Source of the DNA: Chloroflexus aurantiacus J-10-fl
Lineage (GTDB): Bacteria > Chloroflexota > Chloroflexia > Chloroflexales > Chloroflexaceae
DNA length: 64,000 nucleotides
Direction: 5' to 3'
Assembly: GCF_000018865.1 (NCBI RefSeq)
Contig: NC_010175.1
Span: 1,674,001-1,738,000 of the forward strand
The position numbers and the translations under genes were made by a program. A model generated the notes under the pieces. That model ran no database searches, was not told the origin of the DNA, and was given only the letters and a program-made list of their open reading frames with translations. Below, piece by piece: positions 1,914 to 9,314 of this stretch; position 1 is the stretch's first letter, and each line of letters opens with the position of its first letter.

Positions 1914-3047
1914 TCAAGATTGGGCACTCAACACATGCTGTGACACTGTCTCCTGGCGGGCAGCGCGACGGTCGGCGCGTACACGATAGGCCCGGCGGGG
2001 TACGCCGGCGGTCAGCGGTAGCGCAGGCACGGCAAGCAACAGAATCGCCGCTCCAACTCGCAGATCAAAACCGGGTTCGGTGATGACCGGGAAGGGATAG
2101 TAGACCAGGATCGTCGGATCGATCAGGTGGATCGTCGCGACAACGGTGACGGCAGCCGCCGCAGCAATCCAGGTGAGCGTGTCAAGTCGCCGCCAGCGTT
2201 CGCGCCGATAAGTCGTGCGTGGCACACAACGACTCAGATCGTAAGCTGCCCAGGCGGTAAGGACGAGGCCACCACCACCGACCGGCAGCGCGAACGGCCA
2301 GCTTACCGGCCCCACCCATAGCCAGCCGATCAGAGCGGTTGTCATACTCAGCAGACCGGCAATCAGCGCAAAGACACGGGTTGGGTTGTGGGCCGCTGAC
2401 AGCGTGCGCCCGTAGCCCCGCGCCTCCAGCGCTTCCGCCAGTTGCAGCGACCGTTCCAGGCTACCGGCCAGTAGCGGGCCAATCAGTGCCCACCAGCTTC
2501 GGACACTGCCGAAGCGATGACCACGCGCACGCTGCGCAGCCGTGATGTCCTGAATAGCGTGTACCAGCGAGGGGGCAAAGGAAAGCGCAATCGTCACCGC
2601 CAGCCCGGCGTGAAACAGCGAACGCGGCGTCAGACGGAGTAGCCGATGATGATCAACCAGCGCATTGAACGCACCAAAGATGATCAAAAGCGTCCACAGA
2701 CCCAATCCACGAGTCGCGCCCCAGGCCAGCGCTTCAGCAGTGATCGGGCCACCCAACACAATCCCACCGAGCCAGACCGGCAGGTGAATAGCAGGAAGAT
2801 GGAGCAGCACCGTCGCCCCGCGCACACCTCCAACCGTCACGACGGAGAAGACGACGTAGCCAAACCAGATCAAAGCACCGACACGGGCAAACAGACTAAA
2901 ACTGCGGGCCAGTGGCCGATCATCACGATGCCTGACAAAAACCTGCGTCACGACCAGCATGAGCAGGATGTGATAGAGTGGGTGCGGGGCCAGGATGGCG
3001 ATGGTGGTAGTGGCAATCAGCCAGCAGAGCCATGTGCGTGTGTGCAT
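1914..3047 (-). CDS. ECF transporter transmembrane component EcfT/CbiQ-like
   Basis: About 377 residues, polytopic. Several hydrophobic segments lie in the first 150 residues and more near the C-terminus. Two Ala-Arg-Gly signature motifs of EcfT coupling helices are visible: AQRARGHRFGS and, about 40 residues on, ALEARGYGR. These bind the paired ATPases in known ECF transporters. The chosen ATG overlaps the cobS stop as TGATG and is preceded by a G-run; an in-frame ATG 5 codons upstream is less likely. It is the last gene of the cobalamin operon. No EcfA ATPase or S-component is visible in the window, so they must be encoded elsewhere. Cobalamin or cobalt specificity is inferred from the neighbours only. 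Confidence 0.85.
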   Translation of the reverse strand: MHTRTWLCWLIATTTIAILAPHPLYHILLMLVVTQVFVRHRDDRPLARSFSLFARVGALIWFGYVVFSVVTVGGVRGATVLLHLPAIHLPVWLGGIVLGGPITAEALAWGATRGLGLWTLLIIFGAFNALVDHHRLLRLTPRSLFHAGLAVTIALSFAPSLVHAIQDITAAQRARGHRFGSVRSWWALIGPLLAGSLERSLQLAEALEARGYGRTLSAAHNPTRVFALIAGLLSMTTALIGWLWVGPVSWPFALPVGGGGLVLTAWAAYDLSRCVPRTTYRRERWRRLDTLTWIAAAAAVTVVATIHLIDPTILVYYPFPVITEPGFDLRVGAAILLLAVPALPLTAGVPRRAYRVRADRRAARQETVSQHVLSAQS

Positions 3048-3808
3048 CACATTCCCCCCCACCGCACGGTAAGCGCGGCTAACGCGACGACCTCACCAAT
3101 CTCACAGAGGGCACCGTAGGTATCGCCGGTCAATCCGCCCAGATCGCGCACCCACCAGCGCGCTAGCACGTGAGCCACGCCGAACACCAGGCCAACCGTG
3201 ATCAGGCCGGCCAGGCCGGCGATAATCCAGGCACTGGCGACCATCAACAGCGATGCCAGCCAGAGATCGGACTGGCGTACCTGCGCATTGAATGTACGCC
3301 CCAACCCCCCTTCCCGCGCCGGCGGAAAGCGATAGATGACGTAGCAATCTGCCCAACGGCCCAGCATCGGTGCCAGGAGAAGAGCCGGCCAGGCCGGTGC
3401 CGCGCCGGCCACAAATGCCACTTTCAGCAGCAGCACAGCCATCAGCGCCAGGGCACCCATCGCCCCGATCCGACTATCTTTCATAATCTCCAGCTTGCGC
3501 TCACGCGACCGCCAGCTCATCACCGCATCGAAAGTATCGCTCAGCCCATCGAGATGCAGGCCACCGGTGATAATCCCCCACCCAACGACTACCAGCATGG
3601 CAGCGGTCAGATCGCCCCACAACGGACGCGCCAGCGCGTCAACCGCCACCAAGACTCCACCAATCACCAGCCCCACTGCCGGAAACCACGGGATTGCCCG
3701 CACCACACTCTGTTCGCTCATCGGTGACAGACCGGGGAGCGGAATGATGGTCAGAAAGCGGATCGCTTCGATCAAACCAGGCGTGGGCCGTGTCGATGTG
3801 TCGCTCAT
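3047..3808 (-). CDS. cobS: Adenosylcobinamide-GDP ribazoletransferase (cobalamin synthase)
   Basis: 253 residues, normal length for CobS, an integral membrane enzyme that joins adenosylcobinamide-GDP and alpha-ribazole (or its phosphate) in the last steps of cobalamin assembly. The family hallmark GGLHLDGLSDTFDAVMS is at about residues 82-98, followed by RKLEIMKDSRIGAMG. Multiple hydrophobic helices follow. Its ATG overlaps the stop of the upstream phosphatase gene (ATGA), which indicates translational coupling. No cobU or cobT is present in the window. Confidence 0.95.
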   Translation of the reverse strand: MSDTSTRPTPGLIEAIRFLTIIPLPGLSPMSEQSVVRAIPWFPAVGLVIGGVLVAVDALARPLWGDLTAAMLVVVGWGIITGGLHLDGLSDTFDAVMSWRSRERKLEIMKDSRIGAMGALALMAVLLLKVAFVAGAAPAWPALLLAPMLGRWADCYVIYRFPPAREGGLGRTFNAQVRQSDLWLASLLMVASAWIIAGLAGLITVGLVFGVAHVLARWWVRDLGGLTGDTYGALCEIGEVVALAALTVRWGGM

Positions 3809-4474: not shown

Positions 4475-5299
4475 TCAGCCGCTCCGCTGCCGGCTAAGCG
4501 TTGCCACAATCCCGCCGATCAGCACTGCCGCAATCAGCAGAAAGCCGAGCCACTGCCCGCCACTGCTCGCCGGTGCTGAACCTGCCGGCGGAGGGGTCAT
4601 AGCTGGCGTCACCGCCGGCGATGGCGACGATGTATTGATCGTATCCGCCTGCCGGATGGCAGTAGGTGATGGTAATGCCGTTGGTATGGCCGTAGCCGGT
4701 TGGGCCGTCGGGGTTGAGCTTGCCGTCGCTATAGGCACCACCGTCGGTAGCACGGTGGCCGTCGGAGGGAGAGAGCTGGCAGGCGTGATCGTTGCTGTAG
4801 GAACGGTGGTGGGGGCTGGTTCCGCTAACGGTTTACACACATCAGTCAGCTCCAGATCGGGGGGCACCGCACCGCTACTGGCATCACCCGGCCCCCATGC
4901 CCAACCGTGCAGATCGCCATCGCTCACCACGACATTGCTCGCCCCCAAACTGGAGTAACGCCAGGCACCGGCTTCACGGCGGTAAAACGCCCAATAGACG
5001 GCCCGCCCCTGATCGCGTGCGCAGAAACAACCGGTAGCCGGATAATCACACCCTTCCCGCCCAATCTTACACACCGCCGCACCGATACTGCTCTGCTGAC
5101 TGATGACCGGCAACCCACTCCGTTCGAGCAAATCGAGACCACTGATGGTGGGTTCAGCAAACTCGACACACGCCGTCACCACCTCACCATCGCCAAAGCG
5201 CACAACAACCCCGGCGCGATTAAGCGGCGACTGTGCTGAGACCACGCCGGAAAGCAGGATCATAGCCAGCAAGAGCAGCAGCGTGCGTGCGGATCGCAT
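4475..5299 (-). CDS. Secreted DUF4430-like (transcobalamin C-terminal-like) protein with C-terminal anchor
   Basis: About 274 residues. A signal peptide (MRSARTLLLLLAMILLSGVV) is cleaved after SAQ. A domain of about 110 residues carries the pattern of DUF4430, the fold of the C-terminal beta domain of intrinsic factor/transcobalamin: a hydrophobic start (VVVRFGDGEVVTACVEF), a LDLLERSG helix, a Cys-containing strand GAAVCKIGREGC, the YWAFYRREAGAWRYSSLGA segment and a final SDGDLHGWAWG. Six cysteines may form disulfides. Then come about 80 residues of Thr/Pro/Ala linker and a C-terminal membrane helix (WLGFLLIAAVLIGGIVA) ending in RQRSG. It starts 10 bases after the stop of the alpha/alpha-barrel gene, so the two are co-expressed. 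The family call is by eye. Confidence 0.7.
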   Translation of the reverse strand: MRSARTLLLLLAMILLSGVVSAQSPLNRAGVVVRFGDGEVVTACVEFAEPTISGLDLLERSGLPVISQQSSIGAAVCKIGREGCDYPATGCFCARDQGRAVYWAFYRREAGAWRYSSLGASNVVVSDGDLHGWAWGPGDASSGAVPPDLELTDVCKPLAEPAPTTVPTATITPASSLPPTATVLPTVVPIATASSTPTAQPATAIPTALPSPTAIRQADTINTSSPSPAVTPAMTPPPAGSAPASSGGQWLGFLLIAAVLIGGIVATLSRQRSG

Positions 5300-5309
5300 A
5301 ACGACATCC

Positions 5310-6365
5310 CTATAGCGCCTGGCGACGACGGAGCCAGACACCCAACGCGAGCAGTGTGACGCCCATCAACACCACAGGCCAGACCAGCACCTCTTCACCA
5401 CCGGTCGTCGGAAGGTTGGGGGCCGGCGCGATGAGTGACTGAGCAGCCGGAATCGTCGTGCTGACCACCGGCAAGGTCTTCCCGGCAATCGCGGGTATGG
5501 CCTGATAGGTAGCCAATGCGTTATCGTCAGGCATCGCATCTTGATAGCGGAACGCCCCACTCTGATTCTGGAACGCAACCAGCGCCTTCAGCGGTGTGGC
5601 ATCACCCTGCCGCCAGGGTGCAGCGTTGGGGTCTTCGCCAAGGGCCAGAATCGCCTGAACGACGGCTGCGGTCGAGTTGGCATCACTGGCATTGCCAAAG
5701 GCCGATGTTTGCGAGTAGGGAAAGCCGCCATCAGGGTTCTGCTGGCCGCGCAGGTAGGTGCGGGCTGCGCTCAAGGCATCGGCGGCACGGGCATAACCGG
5801 CCAGCGCCATAACGGCCAGACTGGTGGTATTGGTATCACTGCCGGTTGCGGCAGCACCATCGAAGCTCCAGCCGCCATCGCGCAACTGCAAAGCGATCAG
5901 ACGGTCAATGGCTGCGGCTGGCGGTTGCACACCCATCGCCTTGATCGCCAGCAGCGCCAGCGCGTGACCGTACACATCGGCGCCGTACTGACCGGTCGCC
6001 GGATCGTAGGTTGTCCCCAACTGACGGGCCAGATTGACCCCGCCAACATTGAGCGGATCGCGTCCGGCGGCAACCGCGGCCAGAATCAATTTCGCCGTCG
6101 CACCTGCCGAAGAGGTACCGTAGGAAGCGGCCTGACCGGCCAGATACGTCATTGCATTGGCCGGTGGTTGCTCACCGCCGGCAACCAGCGCCACAATCGC
6201 ATCAGCCGTATCACCAGGGCCAAAACCGGCAAAGCTACCATCAGCCTGCTGCTGTGCCTGTACCCATCGCAACGCTGCCGCCACCACGTCGGCCTGAGCA
6301 GCCACCGGTTGCCATAAAAATATGCTCACAAAGAGGGCAAGAACACATGAGATAGCCCGACGCAT
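5310..6365 (-). CDS. Secreted alpha/alpha-barrel (prenyltransferase/intrinsic-factor-like) protein with LPXTG-like anchor
   Basis: About 351 residues. A signal peptide (MRRAISCVLALFVSIFLW...AQA) precedes a series of helical repeats with the prenyltransferase/squalene-cyclase signature (AQQQADGSFAGF, LQLRDGGWSFDG, GQQNPDGGFPYS). This alpha6/alpha6 fold is also used by the N-terminal domain of intrinsic factor and transcobalamin. The C-terminus has LPTTGGEE, a hydrophobic helix and RRRQAL, which matches the LPXTG sortase-signal layout. Its partner gene encodes the matching beta-type domain, and the operon continues with cobC, cobS and ecfT, so a surface corrinoid-binding role is inferred. The chosen ATG has AAGGA about 11 bases upstream. 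The IS607-type element ends shortly upstream. Confidence 0.75.
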   Translation of the reverse strand: MRRAISCVLALFVSIFLWQPVAAQADVVAAALRWVQAQQQADGSFAGFGPGDTADAIVALVAGGEQPPANAMTYLAGQAASYGTSSAGATAKLILAAVAAGRDPLNVGGVNLARQLGTTYDPATGQYGADVYGHALALLAIKAMGVQPPAAAIDRLIALQLRDGGWSFDGAAATGSDTNTTSLAVMALAGYARAADALSAARTYLRGQQNPDGGFPYSQTSAFGNASDANSTAAVVQAILALGEDPNAAPWRQGDATPLKALVAFQNQSGAFRYQDAMPDDNALATYQAIPAIAGKTLPVVSTTIPAAQSLIAPAPNLPTTGGEEVLVWPVVLMGVTLLALGVWLRRRQAL

Positions 6366-7596
6366 GGTACCAGATTCCTTTCTTCCCATTCAGCGAACAC
6401 CCACCGGGCAATAAAAATCCCCCCACCTTCACCGAGGCTGGGTTCACCATGGTCGTGTCGCCATGGCCAGTGCCTGCCTCTCCACAGGCGTTCCTTCGGG
6501 CGCAACTCGCCCTAGACAGCGCCATCCGCTGGAGATTCTTCGCTGCGTTCACGTCCCGATCGTGATCCGTCCCACACGCTGGGCACACCCAGTCGCGCAT
6601 CCCAAGCGGCATCTGCTCAGTTACCGCCCCGCACACCGAGCAGGTCTTCGACGACGCAAACCAGCGATCTGCCTCGACCACTTCCACCCCATACAGCGCC
6701 GCCTTGTACTGCAATTGCCGCTTGAACTCGTACATACCGATGTCGGCAATGTGGCGTGCCAGCGTCCGGTTCCCCAACATACCCCGCACGTTCAGGTCTT
6801 CGATGCCGATCACGCCGTAGGTCCGCACCAGACGGGTGGTGGTCTTGTGCAGCCAGTCGCGGCGGATGTTGGCGATGCGTGCGTGCAGCCGAGCCAGCTT
6901 CAGCGCCGATTTGTATTGGTTTTTGCTGCCGTTCACCTTCCGGCTGTGGCGGCGACTCAACCGGCGCAGCCGCTCCAGGTTCGCCTGCAACGCCTTTGGC
7001 CCAGCCAGCTTCTCGCCGCTGGAGAGCGTCGCCGCAGTCGTCACGCCGAGATCGACACCCACCGCCGCTTGGTTATCGCAGACGGGATCGGGCAGGTCAA
7101 TCTCAACTGGGATGGCGACGTACCAGCGATCTGCGACACGGCTGACCGTGGCCGAGAGCGGTTTGCCGGTGAAGCGGAGGGCTTCGCGCATCCTGATCCA
7201 GCCGATCACGGGCAGACGGATGCACTTGCCGTCACAGCGGAACGTGCCCGGCCCGTTGTCGAACCGCGCACTGTCGTCGCGGCCTTTCTTCTTGTGTGTT
7301 GGGTAGCCAGCGCGGCGCTCAAAGAAGTTTTTGAATGCAGCGCCGAGATTCTTGATCGCCTGTTGCGGGATGGACTTGGGCACGCGCAGCATCCAGGGGA
7401 ACTGCTCGCGCTTGATCGCGTTCAACTGTCGGCGCAGGGCAGCTTCGTTAGGCGTCAGGCCAGCGCAGTATTGCTTCTTCCACTCGTCCAGGGCCCAGTT
7501 GTAGGCGAAGCGGGCAACACCAACAGCTTCACGTAGCAGCAACTCTTGCTGTTTGGTGGGACGAAGCTCAATCTTATGGGTGAGGATCACTCGCAT
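6241..7596 (-). CDS. tnpB: TnpB RNA-guided-nuclease-type protein of IS607 element
   Basis: Frame of 451 codons; the recognisable protein ends near residue 392. It shows the N-terminal helical region (KIELRPTKQQELLLREAVG), the RuvC-like acidic residues in AVGVDLGVTTAA, GVIGIEDLNVRGM and DHDRDVNAAKN, and a zinc finger CSVCG...CPACG. All catalytic residues appear present. In known elements TnpB is an RNA-guided DNA endonuclease whose guide RNA derives from the 3' end of the gene and the element end. The frame lacks a stop inside the element and runs through the right end into the start of the alpha/alpha-barrel gene (same strand, other frame), so about 59 C-terminal residues are probably not native. 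Confidence 0.85.
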   Translation of the reverse strand: MRVILTHKIELRPTKQQELLLREAVGVARFAYNWALDEWKKQYCAGLTPNEAALRRQLNAIKREQFPWMLRVPKSIPQQAIKNLGAAFKNFFERRAGYPTHKKKGRDDSARFDNGPGTFRCDGKCIRLPVIGWIRMREALRFTGKPLSATVSRVADRWYVAIPVEIDLPDPVCDNQAAVGVDLGVTTAATLSSGEKLAGPKALQANLERLRRLSRRHSRKVNGSKNQYKSALKLARLHARIANIRRDWLHKTTTRLVRTYGVIGIEDLNVRGMLGNRTLARHIADIGMYEFKRQLQYKAALYGVEVVEADRWFASSKTCSVCGAVTEQMPLGMRDWVCPACGTDHDRDVNAAKNLQRMALSRASCARRNACGEAGTGHGDTTMVNPASVKVGGFLLPGGCSLNGKKGIWYHASGYLMCSCPLCEHIFMATGGCSGRRGGGSVAMGTGTAAG

Positions 7597-8215
7597 TGCA
7601 GGGCCTCAATCGTGTTCCTGGCTCAATTGGCCGCTGTGCGCTTGCCGTACAGCCTGGCGCACATCGCTACTGTCACCTCGTGCAGATCACACACCACATT
7701 ATTGGCTCCGTCATCAGGTTAGATCACCACGATGCTGCGGCCTTGAGCGGTCATCGCCGCTTCGATGTCCGCAAACCCGAAGCGAGTGAGCCGGTCACGA
7801 TGTTCCACCACGATGGTCTGGGCTGTGGAGTGGCATAGCAGCCAGATCAGCCCTGCGCGGTGACCATTGCGGCAGTAGCCGATGTCCTTGACCACTTCAA
7901 CGATGGTCTGCGTGCGCTGGACAGCGCACTCGACGAGTCGGGCAAACTGGCGACCGAGGTCCTGAGCGTGCTCGGCGCTGGCAACGCGAGGGTCTAGGGC
8001 AGCACCACCGGACTGCGCCGCATTAGGCGGGTAATAGATGATGGTGCCGTTGGGCAACTGCTCGGCCGGTACTGGCAGCTTGCCCTCGTTCCACAGTCGC
8101 CAGGCAGTCTTGTACGTCAGCCCTTGTTGTTTGGCCCATACACTGCGCTTCATAGCTGAGTATACCATAACACGTTAAGGTATATAACGTCTAGCAATTG
8201 CCAGTCCCGTGTTGC
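6385..8215 (-). mobile_element. IS607-family element, degenerate tnpA and apparently intact tnpB (ends approximate)
   Basis: A MerR/serine-recombinase tnpA is followed by tnpB in overlapping frames (ATG of tnpB inside the last codons of tnpA), the classical IS607 order. IS607 elements have no inverted repeats or target duplications, so I could not fix the ends; the coordinates given lie between the flanking genes. At the upstream end there is an inverted repeat, TATACC...GGTATA (8161-8184), overlapping the tnpA start region, possibly promoter or recombinase site. The element separates lysK from the cobalamin operon and stops close to the ribosome site of the first operon gene. Confidence 0.75.
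7587..8153 (-). pseudogene. tnpA: IS607-type TnpA serine recombinase, inactivated
   Basis: The N-terminus reads MKRSVWAKQQGLTYKTAWRL, a MerR-like helix-turn-helix typical of IS607 TnpA; further on QDLGRQFARLVECA and TIVVEHRDRLTRFGFADIEA match the resolvase domain. The reading frame is stopped by TAA at 7719-7721 and again by TGA at 7623-7625. The same frame continues through recognisable sequence (VAMCARLYGKRTAAN) to a final stop at 7587-7589 that overlaps the tnpB start. The catalytic serine of the usual ARVSS motif appears replaced: the copy reads PRVAS. Two in-frame stops and a lost nucleophile make it very unlikely to work, unlike the intact tnpB beside it. Confidence 0.8.
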
Positions 8216-8264
8216 TTGTATTCAATTCAATCGTAGCCGATGGTAGCACAGACCGGGCTGATCG

Positions 8265-9314
8265 TCAACGCAACTGAGCGAGTACCCCGGCCAGCACAGC
8301 AATTGCCCGCTCGTACTCGGCCAGTTCAAGATGCTCATTGGGCGTATGATCAAGCCGTGAGTCGCCCGGCCCGTAAGCGACAATCGGACACTGCCACACC
8401 GGCCCAACCACATTCATATCGGCAGTGCCGGTCTTGTGGAGGAATGCCGGTTGGCCGCCGTGTTGCCGGATCGCACGCACAAACGCGCTCGCCAGCGGTG
8501 TTGTGCGTGGACTCTGAAAGGCGGGGCAGGCGCCGGTGAAGGAGACTTCAGCAGTACCGGCCAGCATGTGCAGGGTATCGGCCAACGCCGCGGGATCGAT
8601 ACCGGGGGGTAGCCGCAAACCAATCGTTGCTTCCACCCATTCGGTAATGCCATCGCTATCGCTATGCACACGCCGCAACGAAGGGATCAACTGCTCGAAC
8701 AGTCGGGTACGACCGGCATTGATACTCTGGCAGTACTGTTCAACGGCACGCCAGAAATCAACCATCACCTCTGGCGCTGCGCGCTGCTCACCGGCACTGT
8801 GCGCAACCGGTTGCCGGTAATGATAATTGACCAGGAGTCGACCTTTGTAGCCGAGCGTAATCCGATCCCAACCACTCGGTTCACCGATCACACAAAAATC
8901 GGGGCGGTAGCGGTCACGAGCCGCATGGGCACCGCGTGAACTTGCGGCCTCTTCTTCGGTAGCCCCAATAATCACCAGCCGACACCCCAACGTTCCCGAC
9001 AGCTCGGCCTGGCGGGCGGCCCAGACAAACGTTGCCAGTGGCCCCTTGGCATCAACCGCCCCACGTCCGTAGAGCCTGCCGTCCTCGATCCGTACCGGCA
9101 CCTCGCCGGGTACCGTATCGATATGACCAAGCAGCACAACCAGCGGCCCTTCGCTACCGATCAGCCCAACCGCACTCCCCGCTTCGTCAACAAAGGCTTC
9201 CCAACCGAAGGAGCGCATCTGGTCAACCATCACCGCAACTGCCGCCGCTTCCTGACCGGAAAGCGATGGCGTGCGCAGCAAACGAACAAGAAATTCAACA
9301 GCATCATGCTTCAT
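8265..9314 (-). CDS. lysK: [LysW]-lysine/ornithine hydrolase (M20 family)
   Basis: 349 residues. A zinc-dependent M20 peptidase of the ArgE/DapE group; LysK releases lysine (or ornithine) from the amino-group carrier protein LysW in the alpha-aminoadipate route. Metal-site and catalytic motifs: [10 protein letters not shown] (first His and the Asp two on), [12 protein letters not shown] (bridging Asp), [12 protein letters not shown] (Glu pair). The [12 protein letters not shown] segment and ITLGYKGRL are typical of the LysK subgroup. The start has CAGGAG 8 bases upstream. No lysW, lysX, lysZ, lysY or lysJ lies nearby, so the pathway genes must be elsewhere. The assignment to LysK rather than another M20 deacylase is fairly but not fully secure. 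Confidence 0.8.

Follow-up and report, generated by a model that had tools for sequence, protein, structure and literature searches.

A candidate two-gene corrinoid carrier with predicted intrinsic-factor-like folds in Chloroflexus aurantiacus

Genes at the locus and its upstream region

The DNA analyzed here, termed the window, is a stretch of 64,000 nucleotides (bases 1674001–1738000) of Chloroflexus aurantiacus J-10-fl, a hot-spring bacterium whose genome is one contig of 5,258,541 bases. The two ORFs for which the initial annotation had proposed a split cobalamin carrier, encoding proteins A and B, were both found on the minus strand near the beginning of the window. ORF positions together with Pfam and TIGRFAM matches indicated that the pair is co-directional with cobC, cobS, and ecfT, as had been claimed; the gene order on this strand is IS607-like tnpA, tnpB, A, B, cobC-like, cobS, and EcfT/CbiQ. 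The features are listed below in window coordinates, where L026 is one of the related loci described later (all designated by L numbers).

8265–9314: lysK-type [LysW]-lysine hydrolase gene
8211–8279, minus strand: upstream remnant (lysK end and promoter-side DNA), 70% over 69 columns versus L026, E 0.008
6428–8210 (approximate ends), minus strand: IS607-like element with tnpA (7719–8168) and the tnpB ORF (6241–7596)
6358–6427, minus strand: leader remnant, downstream of the apparently lost riboswitch, 73% over 71 columns versus the L026 leader, E 5.7e-5
5310–6365, minus strand: protein A, a predicted secreted α/α toroid (residues about 33–312, numbered from the ORF opening at 6389) followed by LPTTG, a hydrophobic segment, and an Arg-rich tail
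4475–5299, minus strand: protein B, a predicted transcobalamin-type β-grasp domain with six Cys, a Thr/Pro stalk, and a C-terminal hydrophobic segment
3805–4509, minus strand: cobC-like α-ribazole phosphatase (histidine phosphatase), PF00300 2e-58, TIGR03162 153.4 bits, below the cut-off of 162.9
3047–3808, minus strand: cobS, adenosylcobinamide-GDP ribazoletransferase, PF02654 1.8e-57, TIGR00317 142 bits, above the cut-off of 110
1914–3062, minus strand: EcfT/CbiQ-family transmembrane protein, PF02361 3.8e-12, above the cut-off

The ORF of A (5310–6389) encodes 359 residues from its opening and that of B (4475–5341) encodes 288. Since close relatives align from MRR, the ATG at 6365 is the likely start of A; the ATG at 5299 is the likely start of B.

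Upstream of A in J-10-fl, no RF00174 match above the gathering score was detected within the window. The cobalamin riboswitch was present upstream of A in all seven other Chloroflexus genomes examined, and the IS607-like element of the window occupies the position that the riboswitch has in these seven. The aptamer of L026 is flanked by lysK and A. Alignment of the window with the L026 leader breaks off about 4 nt short of this aptamer and continues beyond it, with the element in between. The tnpA model scored 92 bits (cut-off 110) and TnpB was above its cut-off. As the element sits at the aptamer position and the riboswitch is kept in the seven others, the strain looks, from these alignments, like a natural case of riboswitch loss. 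The whole genome contains just two RF00174 matches, both away from the window, so that the placement of riboswitches upstream of these genes in relatives is very unlikely to be due to chance. A lysK-type gene also precedes the operon in all seven other Chloroflexus loci.

Predicted folds of A and B

Protein A contains squalene-cyclase/prenyltransferase repeats (PF13249, E 4.2e-6, 26.6 bits, just above the cut-off of 26.2). Its C-terminus consists of LPTTG, a transmembrane segment, and Arg residues (LPXTG model, 17.1 bits; cut-off 15.9), and the C. aurantiacus genome contains four sortase matches. Protein B is made up of a six-Cys core, a Thr/Pro stalk, and a single hydrophobic segment; the six Cys are invariant in a 13-row alignment of close relatives but not in a wider 23-row alignment. 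Judged from the sequence by eye, not by a predictor, both proteins have signal peptides and transmembrane segments. They are accordingly predicted to be secreted and attached to the surface, A by its LPTTG tail and B by its stalk and hydrophobic segment, which agrees with the initial annotation.

By sequence, A matched drimenyl diphosphate synthase (4e-13) and also squalene-hopene cyclase in the PDB. The AlphaFold2 model of A, built for residues 33–312 from a 30-row alignment, had a pLDDT of 95.9 and a pTM of 0.93. It aligned with the α domain of human intrinsic factor (2pmv) at Z 21.9 over 228 residues (rmsd 2.7 Å), with squalene-hopene cyclase (1sqc) at Z 25.7, and with RabGGTase at Z 21.8. 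Because terpene cyclases score above intrinsic factor and RabGGTase is level with it, A by itself does not point to B12; its modeled fold is that of an α/α toroid only and is not specific to B12 carriers. The stretch D185-T-N-T-T189 is invariant in 17 A proteins and presumably located near the acid motif of class II terpene cyclases, but HMMER alignments placed it in two registers. Searches of plasmid sequences gave two weak matches for A and none for B.

The AlphaFold2 model of B, built for residues 37–175 from the 23-row alignment, had a pLDDT of 89.3 and a pTM of 0.84. In a Foldseek search of the PDB, ranks 1–19 were exclusively 3u7z and chains of transcobalamin, haptocorrin, and intrinsic factor, and rank 20 was an unrelated fold with E 0.11. 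In VIA-align, where Z values no more than 1 apart count as tied, the model aligned with haptocorrin (4kki) at Z 12.2 (98 residues aligned, rmsd 2.1), at chain positions 308–411, which form the β domain. The Z values were 12.1 for 3u7z, 11.8 (3kq4) and 11.2 (2pmv) for intrinsic factor, 10.8–11.7 for transcobalamins, and 6.0 for the next unrelated fold. The elements of the model are arranged in the order E5–12, E18–25, H32–37, E43–48/E51–57, E77–87, E90–93, and E108–115. The β hairpin after the helix, a hallmark of the transcobalamin-like clade according to passages of PMC1796856, is present in it. As far as the model goes, B specifically matches the fold of cobalamin carriers and of a bacterial relative of theirs.

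Structure prediction thus recovered both domains of human intrinsic factor, the β domain in B and the α toroid in A. By predicted fold, each of the two proteins corresponds to one domain of the animal cobalamin carriers (Z 10.8–12.2 for B and 21.9 for A), as the initial annotation had proposed; its description of A as an α/α-barrel with prenyltransferase-type repeats also agreed with the PF13249 match above the cut-off and with the toroid model. Its term DUF4430-like for B was appropriate by predicted fold but not by HMM, since B had no Pfam match at E ≤ 1 and PF14478 had no match genome-wide; A and B likewise gave no match to PF01122 (Cobalamin_bind) or PF14478 at E ≤ 1. 3u7z is presumably a DUF4430 protein. 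In hhalign, B and DUF4430 were in register, with a weak match (E 0.012–0.013, probability about 3.5%). HMM cross-searches between B and DUF4430 gave nothing significant among 4799 Chloroflexota, 1280 Actinomycetota, and 788 Bacillota ORFs; the top Bacillota ORF for the B profile was the DUF4430 protein of L182, at a non-significant E of 0.49. No related solved structure was retrieved by sequence with the B profile, the DUF4430 profile, or the DUF4430 protein of L086. Naming B a DUF4430 protein by sequence was rejected on account of the missing Pfam match and the non-significant profile-profile and HMM cross-searches.

Gene neighborhoods, fusions, and riboswitches in relatives

Matches to A with E ≤ 1e-60 occur at 26 places, of which 21 were examined as loci L025–L045, one in the own genome and 20 from the remaining 25. 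B comes after A in 20 of these loci, and the exception, L034, stops at a contig end; the pairing is therefore not a matter of chance. A cobC-like gene lies downstream in 13 loci and cobS in 8, and EcfT follows A–B directly or after cobC/cobS in 16. Of the five loci lacking EcfT, L031, L034, L036, and L037 reach a contig end and L033 does not. Among weaker A matches (L047–L058, n = 12), B was found in eight loci and EcfT in three, and five further Chloroflexota loci (L080 and L082–L085) all have A, B, T, and AA′, the latter two standing for EcfT and EcfAA′. B was detected in 72 of 301 Chloroflexota genomes (E ≤ 1e-5).

Ten Actinomycetota loci were chosen among the 66 genomes with a SCO2322 match out of 148 sampled, and ten Bacillota loci among the 59 genomes with a PF14478 match out of 95; mainly strong matches were picked, so the sample is non-random. 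The order B-T-AA′-S was found in nine of the Actinomycetota loci, five of which show A; the tenth, L171, shows no part. All ten Bacillota loci contain DUF4430, which is followed by T in nine (L086 and L182 are one and the same Bacillota locus). A, B, S, T, and AA′ occur all together in L047, L053, L055, L080, L085, L163–L165, L169, and L172. In three phyla, therefore, many relatives have A, B (or DUF4430), or both in the neighborhood of EcfT, EcfAA′, and S genes. No B was detected beside A in L052, L056–L058, L081, and L087; in L081 and L087, which are from Actinomycetota, T was not detected either, and the SCO2322 model found nothing in either genome. Herpetosiphon-type genomes have a second A paralogue, which is diverged and has no detected B or EcfT (L056:8045–9136 and L057:7634–8788). 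A NUDIX-domain gene was repeatedly seen by EcfAA′ (L038 and L041, where it lies between EcfT and EcfAA′, and L086:17552–18097).

In three relatives the two halves are joined. L085 has toroids and B in one chain of 837 amino acids, followed by S, T, and AA′, with a sub-threshold PF01122 match (0.0054); L051 has them in one chain of 927 amino acids, whose B part is 48% identical to window B; and L080 has the reverse form, with B ahead of the toroids. These natural fusions argue that A and B are one unit. L086 encodes an SLH-anchored toroid; a DUF4430 protein (PF14478, 2.6e-15) occupies the B position there, and T and an AA′-S fusion come next. More than one B or DUF4430 stretch per locus was found in L047, L049, L050, L080, and L172–L177, except for the L174–L175 order.

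The pair, sought beside cob and btu genes in other genomes, was thus found with cobC-like, cobS, and ECF genes, and in L049 and L050 with BtuFCD-like genes. In both of these loci, a riboswitch is present and the gene for a PF01497 binding protein stands between it and A; two B genes and genes for a FecCD permease and an ATPase complete the set. The L049 permease scored best with an F420-0 model and second with BtuC models; as all were below the cut-off, its substrate was deduced from the riboswitch. The L049:4856–11798 and L050:6358–16698 clusters also hold a methyltransferase-like gene. L054, considered as a BtuCD-like case, was rejected, as the neighboring genes are those of an ABC-2 exporter.

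Of 42 loci scanned with Rfam, 35 have a cobalamin riboswitch, always upstream and in the orientation of the genes (RF00174, with RF01482 in two loci). It was found in 22 of 24 Chloroflexota loci including the window (sets of 8/8, 7/7, and 7/8, and none in the window; L086 was left out of this set), in six of nine Actinomycetota loci, and in seven of nine Bacillota loci. The seven loci with no match were the window, L033, L164, L165, L170, L178, and L182.

The genome of C. aurantiacus encodes four CbiQ proteins, one in the operon and three others. A candidate S component of the PF12822 type (C1:1389757–1390494) and a fused EcfAA′ (C1:2280912–2282525) lie apart from the A–B operon, and neither locus gave a riboswitch match. 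Candidate genes are therefore present for all ECF subunits, T in the window and A/A′ and S elsewhere in the genome. At G000:C1:1082852–1085043, another CbiQ protein adjoins another double ATPase, forming a second ECF-like set, which might share the S component. According to passages of PMC3150298, cobalamin synthesis is encoded in C. aurantiacus as well.

Interpretation and relation to known systems

We consider it likely, with a probability of roughly 80%, that A and B together make up a corrinoid carrier of the cell surface, split into two chains, that feeds an ECF-type importer. This proposal is built on the predicted folds, the gene order, the riboswitches in relatives, the natural fusions, and the candidate ECF subunit genes. 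A would contribute the toroid, anchored through sortase or through its own hydrophobic tail, and B the β-grasp domain, carried on a membrane stalk. The two would form a complex that sandwiches the corrinoid, in the manner of intrinsic factor, between the mouth of the toroid and the β domain. The corrinoid would then be handed over to an importer made up of the operon EcfT with the distant S component and EcfAA′, which we infer to act together, with a corrinoid as the probable substrate of S. CobC and CobS would complete salvaged precursors. The link of the pair to cobalamin is firmer than the initial annotation had seen, in view of the riboswitches, complete ECF operons, BtuFCD-like variant, and toroid-B fusions in relatives. 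Several observations count against the carrier proposal: the closer resemblance of A to terpene cyclases, the weak sequence match of B to DUF4430, the unlinked S and EcfAA′ genes of Chloroflexus with no riboswitch match, the four CbiQ proteins and the cobalamin synthesis of C. aurantiacus, the seven loci with no riboswitch match, the loci where A has no detected B, and L171, which shows no part.

A variant compatible with this proposal, which we regard as unlikely, is that A and B are separate corrinoid binders acting in series with no sandwich, or that Chloroflexus uses an importer other than that of the operon EcfT. Such an arrangement would suit the loci with several B or DUF4430 stretches, the unlinked S and EcfAA′ genes of Chloroflexus, and the BtuFCD-like linkage in L049 and L050, but T comes after A–B in 16 of the loci L025–L045, and four of the other five stop at a contig end. 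Considerably less probable is uptake by the pair of cobalt or another metal for a CbiQ-type cobalt importer, which would also be repressed via cobalamin riboswitches. The EcfT does belong to the CbiQ family, and the near fold match 3u7z is titled "putative metal binding protein" in the PDB. On the other hand, the fold matches of B are corrinoid carriers, the operon holds cobC and cobS, and the genome has three other CbiQ proteins; furthermore, the S genes scanned were of the PF12822 type (L047, the own genome, and weakly L086) with no CbiM match reported, and L049 and L050 join A and B to a PF01497 binding protein and a FecCD permease. Least probable, and hardly to be expected, is that A is a surface squalene-cyclase/prenyltransferase-type enzyme with B as an accessory domain and a purely regulatory B12 link: squalene-hopene cyclase and drimenyl diphosphate synthase are indeed the best fold and sequence matches of A, but A appears to be secreted and stands beside or fused to B, adjoining importer genes in several lineages, and B is modeled specifically as a transcobalamin-type β domain.

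An extension of the split-carrier proposal, which we put forward tentatively and at somewhat less than even odds, is that the carrier is assembled by its ligand, with separately anchored A and B closing in trans round the corrinoid. In three phyla or more, evolution would have set this transferable capture module next to one of two unrelated importers, either ECF or BtuFCD-like. The forms with two genes, with a fusion, or with B first would be rearrangements of the device from which animals obtained intrinsic factor.

Like intrinsic factor, transcobalamin, and haptocorrin of animals, the pair combines an α/α toroid with a β-grasp domain of the same predicted fold. The animal carriers are single chains, whereas the window has two genes for surface-anchored proteins and one-chain forms occur only in the relatives L051, L080, and L085; window B also differs in its Cys-rich insert, and the identity in the aligned β domain is 11–19%. 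In bacteria, the closest precedent is a prediction by Burroughs et al., who defined the SLBB superfamily in 2007 (PMC1796856). Passages of that paper describe bacterial transcobalamin-like proteins as secreted or surface proteins with a toroid fused on either side and often a second paralogous SLBB protein; their operons include CbiO-like and CbiQ-like genes, and B12 scavenging is given as their probable role. The same passages place the transcobalamin-like clade in animals, low-GC Gram-positives, planctomycetes, and less often euryarchaea, and propose that animals obtained the toroid plus SLBB form from Gram-positive bacteria. The window is in line with this prediction in having CbiQ, a toroid, an LPXTG tail, and predicted secretion, with EcfAA′ in relatives. 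According to PMC1796856, bacteria with such scavengers usually have no B12 synthesis, unlike C. aurantiacus (PMC3150298). The words "Riboswitch", "S component", "Chloroflex", and "Streptomyces" are absent from its main text.

Among named families, A and B resemble SCO2321 and SCO2322 (NCBIfam NF053823, 4e-34, and NF040672, 1.3e-6), whose models name no function, and the B-T-AA′-S order in 9 of 10 SCO2322-type Actinomycetota loci is that of relatives of the window pair. Both matches are below the curated cut-offs (118.2 versus 300 bits for A and 28.8 versus 85 bits for B), which distinguishes the pair from SCO2321/SCO2322 proper. The proposed import is of the ECF type, as for the vitamin B12 transporter ECF-CbrT, which takes cobalamin and cobinamide (PMC5997447); the extracellular carrier proposed here has no counterpart in the passages of that paper on CbrT. 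A phmmer search of solved structures with the S protein of L080 gave no match at E ≤ 1. L049 and L050 resemble BtuFCD in that PF01497, FecCD, and ATPase genes are present, here behind a cobalamin riboswitch; the difference is that A and B are encoded there besides the binding protein.

The initial annotation had called the system poorly described. This is true of the Chloroflexota/Actinomycetota branch, for which no description was found among open-licence PMC papers, but not of the general idea, as bacterial B12 scavengers with a toroid and a transcobalamin-like domain, beside CbiO/CbiQ, have been known as a prediction since 2007 (PMC1796856). The present analysis adds to that prediction a divergent branch found in Chloroflexota and Actinomycetota, the identification of B by fold, the riboswitch evidence, and the S genes. 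It further adds the BtuFCD-like variant, a B12 producer with the two-gene form, and the apparent riboswitch loss; among the open-licence PMC papers searched, none on these points was found.

To our knowledge, it is poorly understood how bacteria lacking a TonB/BtuB-type outer-membrane system capture extracellular B12 for ECF import. If the proposal is true, a riboswitch-controlled two-chain carrier with intrinsic-factor folds would be a concrete and testable answer to this question. It would also provide a likely function for the SCO2321 and SCO2322 families, the latter model being found in 66 of 148 sampled genomes. The two-gene form splits the domains genetically, so that each half can be removed and tested separately, and the pair would offer prokaryotic relatives for studying the origin of the animal carriers.
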